NCBI GenBank assembly: GCA_902729315.2
Contig: LR746275.1
Coordinates: forward strand, 4,126,185 to 4,190,184
Direction of reading: 5' to 3'
Source of the DNA: Spirodela intermedia
Taxonomy: Eukaryota; Streptophyta; Magnoliopsida; Alismatales; Araceae
Length of the DNA: 64,000 nt
Part shown: piece by piece, positions 51,299 to 63,666 of the stretch
Numbering within the stretch: the stretch's first letter is position 1
How the letters are laid out: the number at the start of each line of letters is the position of its first letter
Notes under the pieces: model-generated
The model's input: only the letters and a program-made list of their open reading frames with translations
Database searches by the model: none
Told to the model about the DNA's origin: nothing
Position numbers and translations under genes: made by a program

Positions 51299-51320
51299 TT
51301 TTAGGGTTTAGGGTTTTTTT
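51299..51320 (+). repeat. Telomeric-repeat/poly(T) junction 1
   Basis: TTTTAGGGTTTAGGG (51299-51313) is followed by seven T. To the right the antisense 3' untranslated region of the adenylate kinase retrocopy begins. Confidence 0.9.
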
Positions 51321-52398
51321 CTACAAAATGAGGGAATTTTCTTTTCTGAAAATTTACACAACATGAGTTGAGGACGCATTAAATAAATTCCTAGCACCCA
51401 CCCACCAAAATGGCACTTACAGAAAAGAAAGTGTACAAGATCAAGAAACGGAGCTAAAAAATGTCATCGATGATGAGCTTTCCTTGGATTTCTTGTCAAG
51501 AACCTCAGACAGTGCCACGTCGATCTCAGAGAATACTTCTCCCTTTGGAGCATTTCCATTGATCTTGACGGTGATGTTCTCATAGACTCCGAGCACAGCT
51601 TCCACATTCTGATGGTGGGTCTGCAACCGCAGCTTTACCTTTTCTTCAGTATCATCAAAGCGTTGAGTAAGCCTGGCGGCGATTTCTTCAATTTCAGGCG
51701 GTGAATACTTCAAGTGGTAGATTTTTCCGGTGACAGGGTCGAGCCTCCTCCCCACAACTCTCTCCACCAGGATATCCTCATCAACATCGAGAAGAATGAA
51801 AAGTTCAGGGTGGATGCCAAGATTTTCCAGAGCAACTGCCTGAGAAAGGCTTCTTGGATATCCATCCAGAAGCCAGCCATTTTCTTCTGCATCCAGTTGC
51901 AGTAAACGCTCTTTGACCATATTTACGACGATTTCATCAAGGACTAGCATCCCCTTTTCCATGTAATATTTTGCTTGCTTCCCATTCTCAGTCCCTGCTG
52001 CAACTTCTGCTTGTAGTAAATCTCCAGCAGCAATATGCACTAGTCCATACTTATCCTTGATCAGCTTGCACTGTGTACCCTTTCCAGATGCAGGAGCACT
52101 TGATATCATAATCTTCAGAGTCTCTGACTTTGCTGTTGCCAGGACAATCGACCGAGATTGGGGTGAAGCGCGCCTCCTGAAGCCAAAGGAGAAACAGCAT
52201 TTTGGAGCGCGATCGAGGCGAAGAGTGAGCCCAAGTGAGGACGACAACGAAAAAAGGGCAACAGAAAGGGACGACGAACGGGGCCCGCCTACAACGGGCT
52301 TGCTGGACGACGACGTAGAAGAGGGGTTCGCCGCTGCTGGTTTGGCAGCGGCAAAGGAGAGACAACCCAAGCAAGTCATAGACGCTGGCTCGCCCCTG
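51321..52398 (-). mobile_element. Retroposed adenylate kinase cDNA unit
   Basis: The whole segment is a spliced transcript copy on the minus strand: short 5' leader, CDS 52379-51441, then about 120 bp of 3' untranslated region and an A7 tail that abuts CCCTAAACCCTAAA. Its 5' end joins CCTTAAACCCTA directly. No target-site duplication other than telomeric text is visible. Confidence 0.8.
51441..52379 (-). CDS. Chloroplast-type adenylate kinase, intronless retrocopy
   Basis: A single open frame of 312 codons encodes a plastid adenylate kinase (ATP + AMP = 2 ADP), with a Ser/Ala-rich transit leader of about 90 residues. It matches the plant AMK2 type over its full length, with the CORE, NMP and LID parts present: APASGKGTQCKLIKDKYGL, LLDGYPRSLSQAVALENLG, RVVGRRLDPVTGKIYHLKY and RFDDTEEKVKLRLQTHHQN. 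The plant gene has several introns, so a contiguous frame with a poly(A) tail marks a processed copy. Two key positions differ from the family. The P-loop begins SAPASGKGT instead of GAPASGKGT. The AMP-contact Arg in GDLLRAE is Gln (GDLLQAE). The frame is intact, yet activity is doubtful. A weakly expressed retrogene or a young pseudogene are both possible. Confidence 0.85.
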   Translation of the reverse strand: MTCLGCLSFAAAKPAAANPSSTSSSSKPVVGGPRSSSLSVALFSLSSSLGLTLRLDRAPKCCFSFGFRRRASPQSRSIVLATAKSETLKIMISSAPASGKGTQCKLIKDKYGLVHIAAGDLLQAEVAAGTENGKQAKYYMEKGMLVLDEIVVNMVKERLLQLDAEENGWLLDGYPRSLSQAVALENLGIHPELFILLDVDEDILVERVVGRRLDPVTGKIYHLKYSPPEIEEIAARLTQRFDDTEEKVKLRLQTHHQNVEAVLGVYENITVKINGNAPKGEVFSEIDVALSEVLDKKSKESSSSMTFFSSVS

Positions 52399-52427
52399 TA
52401 GGGTTTAAGGTTTTTTTTTTTTTTTTT
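52399..52427 (+). repeat. Telomeric-repeat/poly(T) junction 2
   Basis: TAGGGTTTAAGG (52399-52410), a slightly diverged telomeric unit, is followed by 17 T (52411-52427). It separates the adenylate kinase cDNA from a 5S-derived SINE. Confidence 0.85.
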
Positions 52428-52680
52428 GGGATAACTGTCTTGGGCCGAACTTCTCGAGAGTTCAGGTTGCCTCTTGGCAAGTTGTTTTCAGAGCTGGGTG
52501 CTTGTCGGCATGTTGTTCGTGAGATGGATGCCATGCTTCTTGGCATGATGGTAGGGGTGCTTGTCGGCACATACCCAAGGACTTCCTAGGGAGTTCACCC
52601 ATCTAAGGATGACTCCCACCTAAGCATGCTTAAATTTAGAGTTCTTATGGGATCTGGTGGCAACTCTCCCATTAGAGGGG
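52428..52680 (-). mobile_element. 5S-rRNA-derived SINE-like element, copy 1 (short)
   Basis: On the minus strand it opens with AATGGGAGAGTTGCCACC. A 5S-like block follows, CATAAGAACTC..TTAAGCATGCTTAGG and then GATGGGTGAACTCCC and AGGAAGTCC. These correspond to 5S rRNA box A, the intermediate element and box C. The element ends in AAGTTCGGCCCAAGACAGTT and a poly(A) tail. The middle part is shorter than in copy 2. Confidence 0.75.
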
Positions 52681-52745
52681 TTGGTTTTAAACTTAGGGTT
52701 TAAGGTTTTTATTTATTTATTTTAAATTTATTATTATTATTTATA
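52681..52745 (+). repeat. Telomeric-repeat/A+T tail junction 3 (degraded)
   Basis: ACTTAGGGTTTAAGG (about 52691-52705) is followed by T5 and an ATTTATTT..TTATTATTATT tract. On the minus strand this is an A-rich tail of the LINE copy to the right, with the telomeric text partly mutated. Confidence 0.7.
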
Positions 52746-53895
52746 ATTGATTAGATGAGAGAGGAATTTGTCATAATAAGTGTAGGCAAATTCATGGCAT
52801 CTATCATCACTCTTGAGCTAATAGCTAAGGTGCGTTCCACATTAGTGGTACGTGACAAGTGTCATGATGATGTCGTGGTTGTGGTGTGTGATAGACTTGA
52901 AATCAGAAACAAAGGAAACACGTACCTATATCTCCATTGTGGTCTTTAGCGGCCAATGGTAGCCGCCCCTGATCTCCTCCAAGCAATACGTCACTGCTGT
53001 GGAGGGGCCGATAGTAGAGTGTGATGTATATATAAAGAGGGTATGTCGAGTTGCTCAAGTCTATGAGCACCTCGAGCTTCGAGGGGCATGTTTTGTCGAG
53101 AAGAGAAGACTGTCCTCCGACACGATCTAACTCTATGCGTAACAAGAGTGTCGGCCGTTTAATTCTTTTCTTAGAACTAATGCGTAATGGCTGTGATACG
53201 CCCTTGACATCTCATGATGTTTGTTCAGATGTTCTTGAGCCTCCAATGAGGATAAAAGTCTACACATAACATGTCCACTAACACTTTGAAGTCAAATTCT
53301 AGGATAATATCAGTAATATTTTACTCCTCATAAAAAAGTAAATCATCCCATATTGCCATAGCCTCTACCACAGTGTTAGTCCGTATATTATAAAAGTTTG
53401 AGGAGGCAAAGAGAATACATTCTGTACTATCGCTTGAGCTAGATGGTCTTGGGTTGCTTTGAGATGCTCCATCGACGTTGAGTTTTTACCGTCTAACATT
53501 TGGTGATGTCCATCTAATAGATCAGATATTAGTCCAAGTTTGTATAGGTATGATATGAAGTCCCCAAAGCCTAAAAGCCTCACAAATAGAACATGAACAT
53601 TTCATTTTGTTTGGCACTAAGGAATGAGTACTTCGAAATCATTGTGTTACGTGCCTCATAGTTTCTATGGCATGTATCACTTGACTTGTAAATTGAGATG
53701 AGTTACATCTCTTCTATATTTCCCATAACATATATGCTATGGAGATATGGATGAAGGAACTAACCTTGACACTCGTTGGTGAGTCAATGATTCTCCTAAA
53801 TACCTCTAGTGGTGGTCTCGTAAGTCTATATGAGAGCGTTGGAAGCCAATTCGTTAGCAGTTGACTCCAACACTCGACAACAATATCACTATGGA
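52746..53895 (-). mobile_element. 5'-truncated LINE copy (RNase H and 3' region)
   Basis: Parallel to about 55430-56612 of the longer LINE, with substitutions and small indels. Minus-strand translation shows the RNase H start KLNVDGASQSNPRPS near 53490 and LINLSNSTYPLYIYITL-like text downstream, broken by stops. Homology to the longer LINE runs up to CAATATCACTAT and stops exactly where TTTAGGG begins. The truncated 5' end therefore joins telomeric DNA directly. Confidence 0.8.
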
Positions 53896-62790: not shown

Positions 62791-62810
62791 ACGAAGGAGA
62801 TCTCACCATT

Positions 62811-63136
62811 TGATAACTGTCTTGGGCTGAACTTCTCAGGAGGTCACCCATCCTGGTACTTCACACGCCCAAACACTTTAGTGCCCAAGCACATTCATCG
62901 GAGATAGATGTCACTTGCGCCTTTTGGCATGATGGCAGGGGTGACTCTCGGCACATTCTTCACAGTTGAGGGCGTCTTGGCATAGTGAGATGGATGCCAC
63001 AACACGTGTCGCAACGCATGCACACAAACCTGGGGACTTCCCAAGGAGGTCACCCATCTGGGAACTGCTCTCACCGTAGCACACTTAACTCGTGAGTTCT
63101 TATGGGATTTAGTGACAACTCTCCTATTAAGGGGGG
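62811..63136 (-). mobile_element. 5S-rRNA-derived SINE-like element, copy 3, fused to the LINE 5' end
   Basis: Starts on the minus strand with AGGAGAGTTGTCAC and shows CTCACGAGTTAAGTGTGCT, GATGGGTGACCTCC, a short spacer, then GGATGGGTGACCTCCTGAG and AGTTCAGCCCAAGACAGTT. Instead of a poly(A) tail it runs through ATCAAA straight into the LINE leader at about 62810. Its 5' end meets TTAGGGTTTAGGG at 63137. Confidence 0.78.
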
Positions 63137-63169
63137 TTAGGGTTTAGGGTTTTTTTTTTTTTTTTTTTT
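63137..63169 (+). repeat. Telomeric-repeat/poly(T) junction 6
   Basis: TTAGGGTTTAGGG (63137-63149) is followed by 20 T (63150-63169), directly abutting the next antisense SINE. Confidence 0.92.
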
Positions 63170-63524
63170 GATAATTGTCTTTGGCCGAACTTCACATGCC
63201 TAAGCATTTTGGTGCCTCTCAGGCACATTCTTTGGAGATAGATGCCACTTGCACCTCTTGACATCGTGGCAGGGGTGCCTCTCGGCACATTCTTTGGAGC
63301 TGGAGGCATCTTGGCATGGTGACGTAGTGGTTCATAACACAAGCTAGGCAGCATGATCATGCAGCAGTGACTTTCAGCACATGCACAGCAAGCGTCTCGC
63401 AACGCATGCACACGTACCTGGGGACTTCCCAGGGAGGTCATCCATCCGGGGACTGCTCCCACCTGAGCATGTTTAACTCTGAAATTCTTATGGGATCCGG
63501 TGGCAACTCTCCCACTATGGGGGG
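63170..63524 (-). mobile_element. 5S-rRNA-derived SINE-like element, copy 4
   Basis: Minus-strand head has CCACCGGATCCCATAAGAAT and TTAAACATGCTCAGGTGGGA, then GGATG.ATGACCTCCCTGGG. The tail ends in AAGTTCGGCCAAAGACAATT and a poly(A). The tail 5S block is partly deleted compared with copy 2. It lies between junctions 6 and 7. Confidence 0.78.
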
Positions 63525-63666
63525 TTTAGGGTTTAGGGTTTAGGGTTTAGGGTTTAGGGTTTAGGGTTTAGGGTTTAGGGTTTAGGGTTTAGGGTTTAGG
63601 GTTTAGGGTTTAGGGTTTAGGGTTTAGGGTTTAGGGTTTAGGGTTTTTTTTTTTTTTTTTTTTTTT
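63525..63666 (+). repeat. (TTTAGGG)17 telomeric tract plus poly(T), junction 7
   Basis: Seventeen perfect TTTAGGG units (63525-63643) without a single substitution are followed by 23 T (63644-63666). This is the longest and purest telomeric tract of the window. The RPL34 3' untranslated region follows in antisense. Confidence 0.97.

Follow-up and report, generated by a model that had tools for sequence, protein, structure and literature searches.

The 64,000-nucleotide stretch at the right end of contig C12 of Spirodela intermedia (C12:4126185-4190184, LR746275.1, assembly GCA_902729315.2; hereafter the window) contains a chain of retroposed cDNAs joined to tracts of the telomeric repeat TTTAGGG, and the same arrangement was found at most chromosome ends of the assembly. 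The cDNAs were derived from a long interspersed nuclear element (LINE), a 5S-derived short interspersed nuclear element (SINE) and host mRNAs. We consider it likely that serial end-primed retroposition, in alternation with telomerase, extends the chromosome ends of this plant. A preliminary description of the window had suggested this geometry, with reverse transcription primed by the telomeric G strand and alternating with telomerase, and it was found to fit the whole assembly and not just this locus.

The distribution of the junctions was examined by counting patterns on both strands of the 136.5 Mb assembly (32 contigs), and the same motif reversed was used as the control. The unit TTTAGGG followed by ten T residues (TTTAGGG+T10) was found at 44 + 48 = 92 sites, as against 1 + 3 = 4 for the control. 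Seventy-eight of the 92 sites were located within 60 kb of a contig end, which was taken as terminal, and their T runs pointed outward; the 36 terminal stretches of 60 kb together make up ~1.6% of the genome. Of the 36 ends of C1-C18, 29 had such terminal outward junctions, as did the left end of C30. The genome-wide survey that had been proposed earlier, carried out here with T10, thus returned junctions that were enriched over the control, biased outward and close to contig ends. Position alone was not taken as proof because the clustering of telomeric repeats at ends explains the position and not the side or the letter of the homopolymer. The mirror geometry, in which poly(A) would abut an outer TTTAGGG from its inner side, was the telling control because telomeric repeats themselves sit at the ends in that orientation. 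The pattern A10 N{0,6} GGGTTTAGGG did not occur in the genome (control 0), and A10 N{0,6} TTTAGGG occurred four times, in all cases in the interior and below its reversed control of 15. A chance origin of the junctions was ruled out by the reversed-pattern and mirror-geometry counts. In a census of 260 kb made up of the window, pieces from other ends and some more interior stretches, 60 of the 131 outward runs of at least nine T followed directly after a telomere-like unit, either TTTAGGG itself or a near variant of it, whereas none of the 15 runs of at least nine A had TTTAGGG within 30 bases after it and two had it within 30 bases before. A gapped TTTAGGG/T-run pattern (55 + 282, control 6 + 8) was excluded from the tallies because it counted the same T run repeatedly.

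The elements themselves were distributed in the same way. The search for the LINE reverse transcriptase scored 49 of the 386 first-look candidates, so that LINE copies are under-counted, and 2 of its 51 matches were excluded as second pieces of copies already counted. The 49 places that remained were concentrated at the termini, with 37 within 60 kb of an end (34 in the expected strand) and 12 further in, seven of these in the outward-type strand; interior copies thus also exist. Among the places with at least 97% identity to the query, 13 of 15 were terminal. Close to the right end of C11, an inverted repeat of LINE 5' parts was noticed at C11:9224377-9232723, with arms of ~2.4 kb at 96% identity. 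When the window copy at 53926-54401 was used as the query for the SINE (39 of 107 candidates scored; 162 matches in all), 114 of the 150 pieces listed were terminal and outward, 16 were at 60-400 kb and all outward, and 11 were more than 400 kb from an end, where a single copy may yield several pieces. Matching SINE clusters were observed at C1:11382868-11384332 and C6:10086231-10087666, both ~84 kb from the right end, as if one terminal block were shared. In S. intermedia, chromosomes 1 and 6 carry 45S rDNA close to their ends, according to the consulted sections of the genome paper (PMC7645714).

The order of elements in the window is given in Table 1. The seven junctions named in the preliminary description were all found again within a few bases, and the single orientation claimed for them holds for every one. 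A further join at about 62810, where the LINE meets a SINE without a telomeric unit, had been overlooked. The third junction is the weakest of the set, its tail being short and A/T-rich. The donor labels LINE, SINE, adenylate kinase (AK) and RPL34 were borne out by matches to ADK, RVT_1, DUF4283, Exo_endo_phos, eL34 and 5S_rRNA. The older LINE on the inner side showed 68-72% identity to the C11 right-end LINE over 49339-50047 and 50875-51292 by BLAST, and the region at 46.3-49.1 kb holds more rearranged pieces of the same LINE type. The nearly full-length LINE probably lacks only some tens of bases at its 5' end; its reverse transcriptase part has 90% identity and 11 stops. The window has a G+C content of 42.1%.

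Table 1. Elements and junctions of the window, and joins between cDNAs elsewhere in the assembly that lack a telomeric unit. Positions are those of the window unless a contig is named.
Feature	Position	Strand	Remarks
Older LINE, 5' part	49339..51298	-	5' end faces the chromosome end and abuts the first TTTAGGG; BLAST match to the C11 right-end LINE stretch
Junction 1	51300-51320	+	TTTAGGG x2, then T7
AK processed cDNA	51321..52398	-	Intronless; Pfam ADK E=8.3e-46
Junction 2	52399-52427	+	TAGGGTTTAAGG, then T17
5S-derived SINE, short copy	52428..52690	-	
Junction 3	52693-52710	+	TTAGGGTTTAAGG, then T5
LINE cDNA, 5'-truncated	52711..53895	-	52926-53895 corresponds to LINE copy A 1011-1992 at 84%
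Junction 4	53896-53925	+	TTTAGGG x2, then T16
5S-derived SINE	53926..54401	-	Extends to the usual 5' end
Junction 5	54402-54434	+	TTAGGGTTTAGGG, then T20
L1-type LINE cDNA, nearly full-length	54435..62810	-	86-95% to LINE copy A, three pieces
Junction 6 (direct join, 62810)	62808..62814	+	LINE cDNA end ...CCATTT directly against the SINE 3' end; no telomeric unit
5S-derived SINE	62811..63136	-	
Junction 7	63137-63169	+	TTAGGGTTTAGGG, then T20
5S-derived SINE	63170..63524	-	63408-63528 aligns with the whole 5S rRNA model
Junction 8	63525-63666	+	17 x TTTAGGG (119 bp), then T23
RPL34 (eL34) cDNA with poly(A)	63667..64000	-	eL34 E=3.9e-11; cut by the C12 contig end
Direct join	C2:22529		SINE 5' end to LINE tail
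Direct join	C3:6550669		Truncated SINE to SINE tail
Direct join	C17:6706		No telomeric unit
Direct join	C11:9216578		No telomeric unit
Direct join	C2:9590153		No telomeric unit

Host mRNAs that served as donors include those of adenylate kinase, eL34, U2B'', VDAC, alpha-tubulin and an RRM protein (at C2 left), together with one unnamed cDNA at C18 right that has no Pfam match. The AK copy of the window matches eight blocks of its parent at C11:1246164-1250035 with 92-99% identity, the VDAC copy at C18 right (Pfam eukaryotic porin) matches seven parent blocks, the U2B'' copy four, and the alpha-tubulin copy at C4 left three, at 99-100%. The U2B'' copy is found at two places on C1, 361 kb and 85 kb inside the right contig end, and a piece of it at C18 right. 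The copies of AK, VDAC, U2B'' and alpha-tubulin are therefore processed from spliced RNA, and since they lack the introns of their parents the earlier wording of captured host genes is appropriate. The eL34 copy matched its relative at C8:5891452-5891781 (97%) in one block, so that this match does not show splicing. Neither the parent of AK nor that of eL34 encodes the A run, and the T runs at these two copies are thus poly(A) tails. No target-site duplication was found around the host retrocopies, their flanks being telomeric tracts or other cDNAs. The near-identity of the alpha-tubulin copy to its gene implies that addition has gone on recently. The AK copy retains an open frame of 312 amino acids (window 51441-52379, minus strand) despite its 92-99% identity to the parent, and may be a functional retrogene.

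The LINE is of the L1 type of plants, as judged by its poly(A) and its domains, and two copies (C11 right and C1 left) showed Pfam matches to DUF4283 in ORF1, Exo_endo_phos, RVT_1, zf-RVT and an RNase H-like domain (RVT_3). Copies without internal stops exist. An older endonuclease piece had no Pfam match, and the LINE endonuclease had no match in PDB at E<=0.01. The head of the SINE aligns to the whole 5S model; seven 5S_rRNA matches were obtained at three loci, one of them over the gathering score (38.2 versus 38 bits, model 1-120) and six below it. The window copy at 63408-63528 (E=0.03, 27.7 bits) is also below the gathering score. The SINE base that aligns with 5S base 1 begins AAACCCCCCUAAG, and a full SINE cDNA thus ends in a telomere-like G run. 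Copying of the SINE 5' end AACCCCCC... produces a cDNA whose tip, ...TTAGGGGGGTT (also written ...TTAGGGGGG), already resembles the telomeric repeat. Five interior SINE copies were sampled and both flanks were examined for three. Two of these have target-site duplications, which measure at most 19 bp at the C9 copy and at most 13 bp at the C4 copy, with outermost letters common to the A/T run, and the third (C18) has a doubtful duplication of 9 bp. This C18 copy, at C18:1188040, carries ~20 extra bases beyond the usual 5' end, and the possible duplication follows them. Because two interior copies carry target-site duplications, ordinary target-primed insertion is open to this SINE in the interior, and it is joined differently at the ends.

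The mechanism that we propose would begin at a worn or uncapped telomere, where the G strand ends in ...AGGG(T0-3) and a polyadenylated RNA could anneal, the T's of such 3' ends pairing with its poly(A). The annealed RNA would then be copied; the probable enzyme is the reverse transcriptase of the resident L1-type LINE, perhaps acting without the LINE endonuclease. Because the primer would be the chromosome's own 3' end, the RNA 5' end comes to face outward and the poly(A) side inward. Telomerase would re-cap the tip of the new cDNA, often with just 1-3 TTTAGGG units before the next RNA arrives, and the cycle would repeat. Any poly(A) RNA could serve as the template, be it LINE, 5S-derived SINE or spliced host mRNA, and it is conjectured that the SINE may be favoured, as a cDNA tip resembling the telomeric repeat could prime telomerase. 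A telomerase gene is present in the assembly (telomerase RBD match over the cut-off), and the short tracts would be its product. End priming is favoured over the second option of the preliminary description, an L1-type nick TTT/A inside TTTAGGG tracts, on three grounds: the telomeric tracts are short, the outer joins occur in all seven registers and some joins have no telomeric unit.

The tracts that precede T runs have a median length of 22 bp in a table of 75, in which two rows from C12 left that resemble chance were retained. The strongest alternative to end priming is endonuclease-dependent target-primed insertion, in which the LINE enzyme would cut the G strand at TTT/A within a telomeric tract and insert LINE, SINE and mRNA there without needing a free end. 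This alternative predicts the identical orientation and would suit the endonuclease domain of the LINE and the normal duplications at two interior SINE copies, and it agrees with the inner register, since AGGG(T0-3) stands just before the T run in 34 of 37 strict cases (AGG in three; none on the opposite strand). The inner register fails to separate end priming from nicking. What speaks against nicking is that tracts within the chains measured 7-76 bp in 68 of 75 cases and 121-226 bp in the other seven, although terminal TTTAGGG arrays of 2.2 kb at the right tip of C3 and 2.0 kb at that of C18 are present. The outer register also differs from the prediction of a fixed nick, which is a fixed register. 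Leaving aside the 31 tracts that sit behind a SINE reaching its usual 5' G run, 32 of the remaining 44 rows were clear, and all seven registers occurred among them (GG 8, GGG 6, TTAGGG 5, G 4, AGGG 3, TAGGG 3 and whole unit 3). The AGGG-first register, as left by a TTT/A nick, thus accounts for only 3 of 32. Six joins between cDNAs without any telomeric unit (Table 1) are likewise not expected from nicking inside telomeric tracts. On this evidence, nicking appears unlikely.

The direct joins were sorted by eye. Of 20 candidates four were direct, two rows at C2:26275-26287 were ambiguous and 14 were discarded, being G-broken T runs beside telomere, telomere-like after all or chance motifs; the joins at C2:9590153 and window 62810 came from separate comparisons. 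Such joins would also arise by template jumping, in which a few chains are made in single reverse transcription events that jump from the RNA 5' end to the next poly(A) and are then spread among ends by subtelomeric exchange and tandem duplication. The recurrence of the U2B'' copy at C1:11105396, C1:11382102 and partly C18:4491738 and the SINE clusters at equal distance on the right ends of C1 and C6 would fit this course of events. However, 48 of the 68 T-run joins with a SINE or LINE 3' motif in the examined pieces hold telomere-like units, which jumping does not produce, the host mRNAs mostly differ between the examined ends, and the identities to the parent genes (99-100% for alpha-tubulin versus 92-99% for AK) indicate additions of different age. 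Jumping with later duplication is accordingly regarded as quite improbable. An assembly artefact, in which cDNA or chimeric reads were joined to telomeric reads at contig ends, might be suspected because 13 of the 15 left ends inspected carry N blocks and C12 stops within a cDNA, but is hardly credible when the same grammar recurs at 29 of 36 ends, the spliced copies are several percent diverged from their genes and the chains at the right ends of C3 and C18 continue into 2.0-2.2 kb of telomere.

Three further observations concern the cDNAs. At the left end of C12 (~2.5-7 kb) a 5'-truncated LINE runs up to 341 bp of telomere followed by an N block, so that a cDNA end is capped here by a longer telomeric array; no TTTAGGG+T10 junction was found within 60 kb of this end. 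Microhomology of 1-4 bases with the repeat was seen at five of seven retained truncated ends, which are too few to carry weight. Rows were retained when an outside reference matched with at most three mismatches, and self-only matches, rows with 4-5 mismatches and the rows C2:16130, C4:21904, C4:10020921 and C11:9232733 were dropped, the last four because the end was not a truncation or the reference was itself telomere-like. G-quadruplex motifs in the outward/inward sense numbered 2/0 in the window LINE and 0/0 in AK and the three SINE copies tested.

The order of addition was followed with 17 pairs of LINEs that lie on one end in the expected strand. The outer member was closer to the reference copy in 14 pairs and the inner in one (C30), with two ties. 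Greater closeness of the outer LINEs to the reference is a prediction of end addition and lends support, not proof, to an order in which additions would follow each other strictly in time from the inside outward.

Several observations weigh against serial end-primed growth. Fourteen of the 92 TTTAGGG+T10 junctions are not terminal and outward: two are inward within 60 kb, three outward and one inward at 60-400 kb, and one outward and seven inward at more than 400 kb. Near the ends, nine SINE pieces and three LINE places are oppositely oriented; inversion is a possible but unproven cause of the individual cases. The LINE family is not confined to chromosome ends, and copies of 97-98% lie deep in C9 (C9:7365853 and C9:5276584). 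Some U2B'' and SINE copies of C1 are 85-380 kb from the contig end. The narrow inner register (34 of 37 AGGG) is also what a TTT/A nick predicts, and the endonuclease ORF of the LINE (Pfam E=4.5e-10) has GDFN and SDH, which are candidate catalytic motifs, so that a nick inside TTTAGGG would be possible. The LINE-pair test uses pairs that are non-independent and an identity to one copy that mixes age with subfamily, and the reversed C30 pair contradicts the order. As to the assembly, the outermost cDNA of the window (eL34) is interrupted by the right end of C12, and N was found at the start of 13 of the 15 left contig ends inspected (C1, C2, C12, C17 and nine others), with blocks of 2500, 7500, 2500 and 5000 bases at the four left ends read further. 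The true tips at these left ends may be missing from the assembly. According to its authors, the genome of clone 8410 was assembled into 18 pseudomolecules, all with telomeric sequence at both ends; the consulted sections of their paper count LINEs among the minor classes of repeats and do not mention arrays of retroelements at the ends of chromosomes (PMC7645714).

The present LINE resembles telomere-associated non-LTR (long terminal repeat) elements in the broad sense in having a non-LTR reverse transcriptase, a terminal concentration and its 3' end inside and 5' end outside at telomeric repeats. HeT-A, TART and TAHRE of Drosophila attach serially to chromosome ends with the poly(A) inside and the 5' end outside. 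Serial end attachment and the inner poly(A) are shared by the chains of S. intermedia, whereas the HeT-A/TART-type replacement of telomerase differs from the situation here, where a telomerase gene and TTTAGGG arrays are present and the donors include a SINE and mRNAs. The SART/TRAS elements of the silkworm are non-LTR elements that lie within telomeric repeats, as here, and arise by site-specific nicking in long telomeric arrays. They have a fixed register on both sides, unlike the narrow inner and variable outer registers and the short tracts of the present chains. Zepp of Chlorella and Coccomyxa (Higashiyama 1997 and Yamamoto 2003, via consulted parts of PMC10088271 and PMC3446292) is alike in forming LINE clusters at termini within the green lineage; here an L1-type LINE with a DUF4283 ORF1 occurs with a SINE and host mRNA copies at most ends of an angiosperm. 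The Zepp clusters of Coccomyxa C-169 are described in the consulted part of PMC3446292 as mostly interior and one per chromosome, unlike those here. The MoTeR/FoTeR elements of fungi, as far as the consulted part of PMC12857005 describes them, also have the 5' end toward the terminus and are joined to telomeric repeats, but they have a restriction-enzyme-like endonuclease and 3' telomeric repeats in place of the APE-type endonuclease and poly(A) found here. Athena Penelope-like elements, rotifer Terminons and the Selaginella Penelope-like element share attachment at the G overhang, chains and host genes between units (PMC12477314, consulted sections), whereas the Athena/Terminon combination of a Penelope-type reverse transcriptase without endonuclease and a C-rich 3' repeat in the RNA differs from the LINE reverse transcriptase, APE-type endonuclease, RNase H and poly(A) retrocopies of S. 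intermedia. Endonuclease-independent L1 insertion at mammalian telomeres (Morrish 2007, via consulted parts of PMC4700185) likewise joins L1 cDNA to a telomere end; that case concerns DNA-PKcs-deficient cultured cells, whereas the joins described here are fixed at most assembly ends and involve a SINE and mRNAs as well.

The consulted sections of a review of 2025 (PMC12477314) state that similar telomeric retrotransposons have not been found in plants and name examples of other types from plants, in Selaginella a Penelope-like element and in Silene an LTR element of subtelomeric location. Known telomere-associated retroelements include HeT-A/TART of the fly, MoTeR/FoTeR of fungi, Zepp of Chlorella, SART/TRAS of insects, the Terminons of rotifers and elements of Giardia. 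No such building of chromosome ends was found reported from flowering plants in the literature searched, and no report there combined Spirodela, SINE, LINE and telomeric. What is new within that literature is a system of this kind in a flowering plant, where it occupies most ends, counts a SINE and several host mRNAs among its donors and stands beside a telomerase gene.

If serial end-primed retroposition is the correct reading, a fast-growing clonal plant would combine telomeric retroposition with a telomerase gene at most of its chromosome ends, a SINE and host mRNAs being among the donors. How LINE retroposition relates to telomerase is a question usually argued from flies; it could then be addressed in a case where the two share an end, and the order of additions would be readable from the tip inward. 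A more tentative extension, which we hold to be possible though somewhat less probable than not, is that retroposition at telomeres is open-access, the LINE enzyme copying any poly(A) RNA that reaches a bare telomere, that the SINE is adapted to it by a 5' end serving as telomerase primer and that intact host retrogenes reside at the tips. If so, the chromosome ends of S. intermedia would serve both as a dated archive of the RNAs that were expressed and as a nursery for new genes, of which the AK copy with its open frame would be an example.

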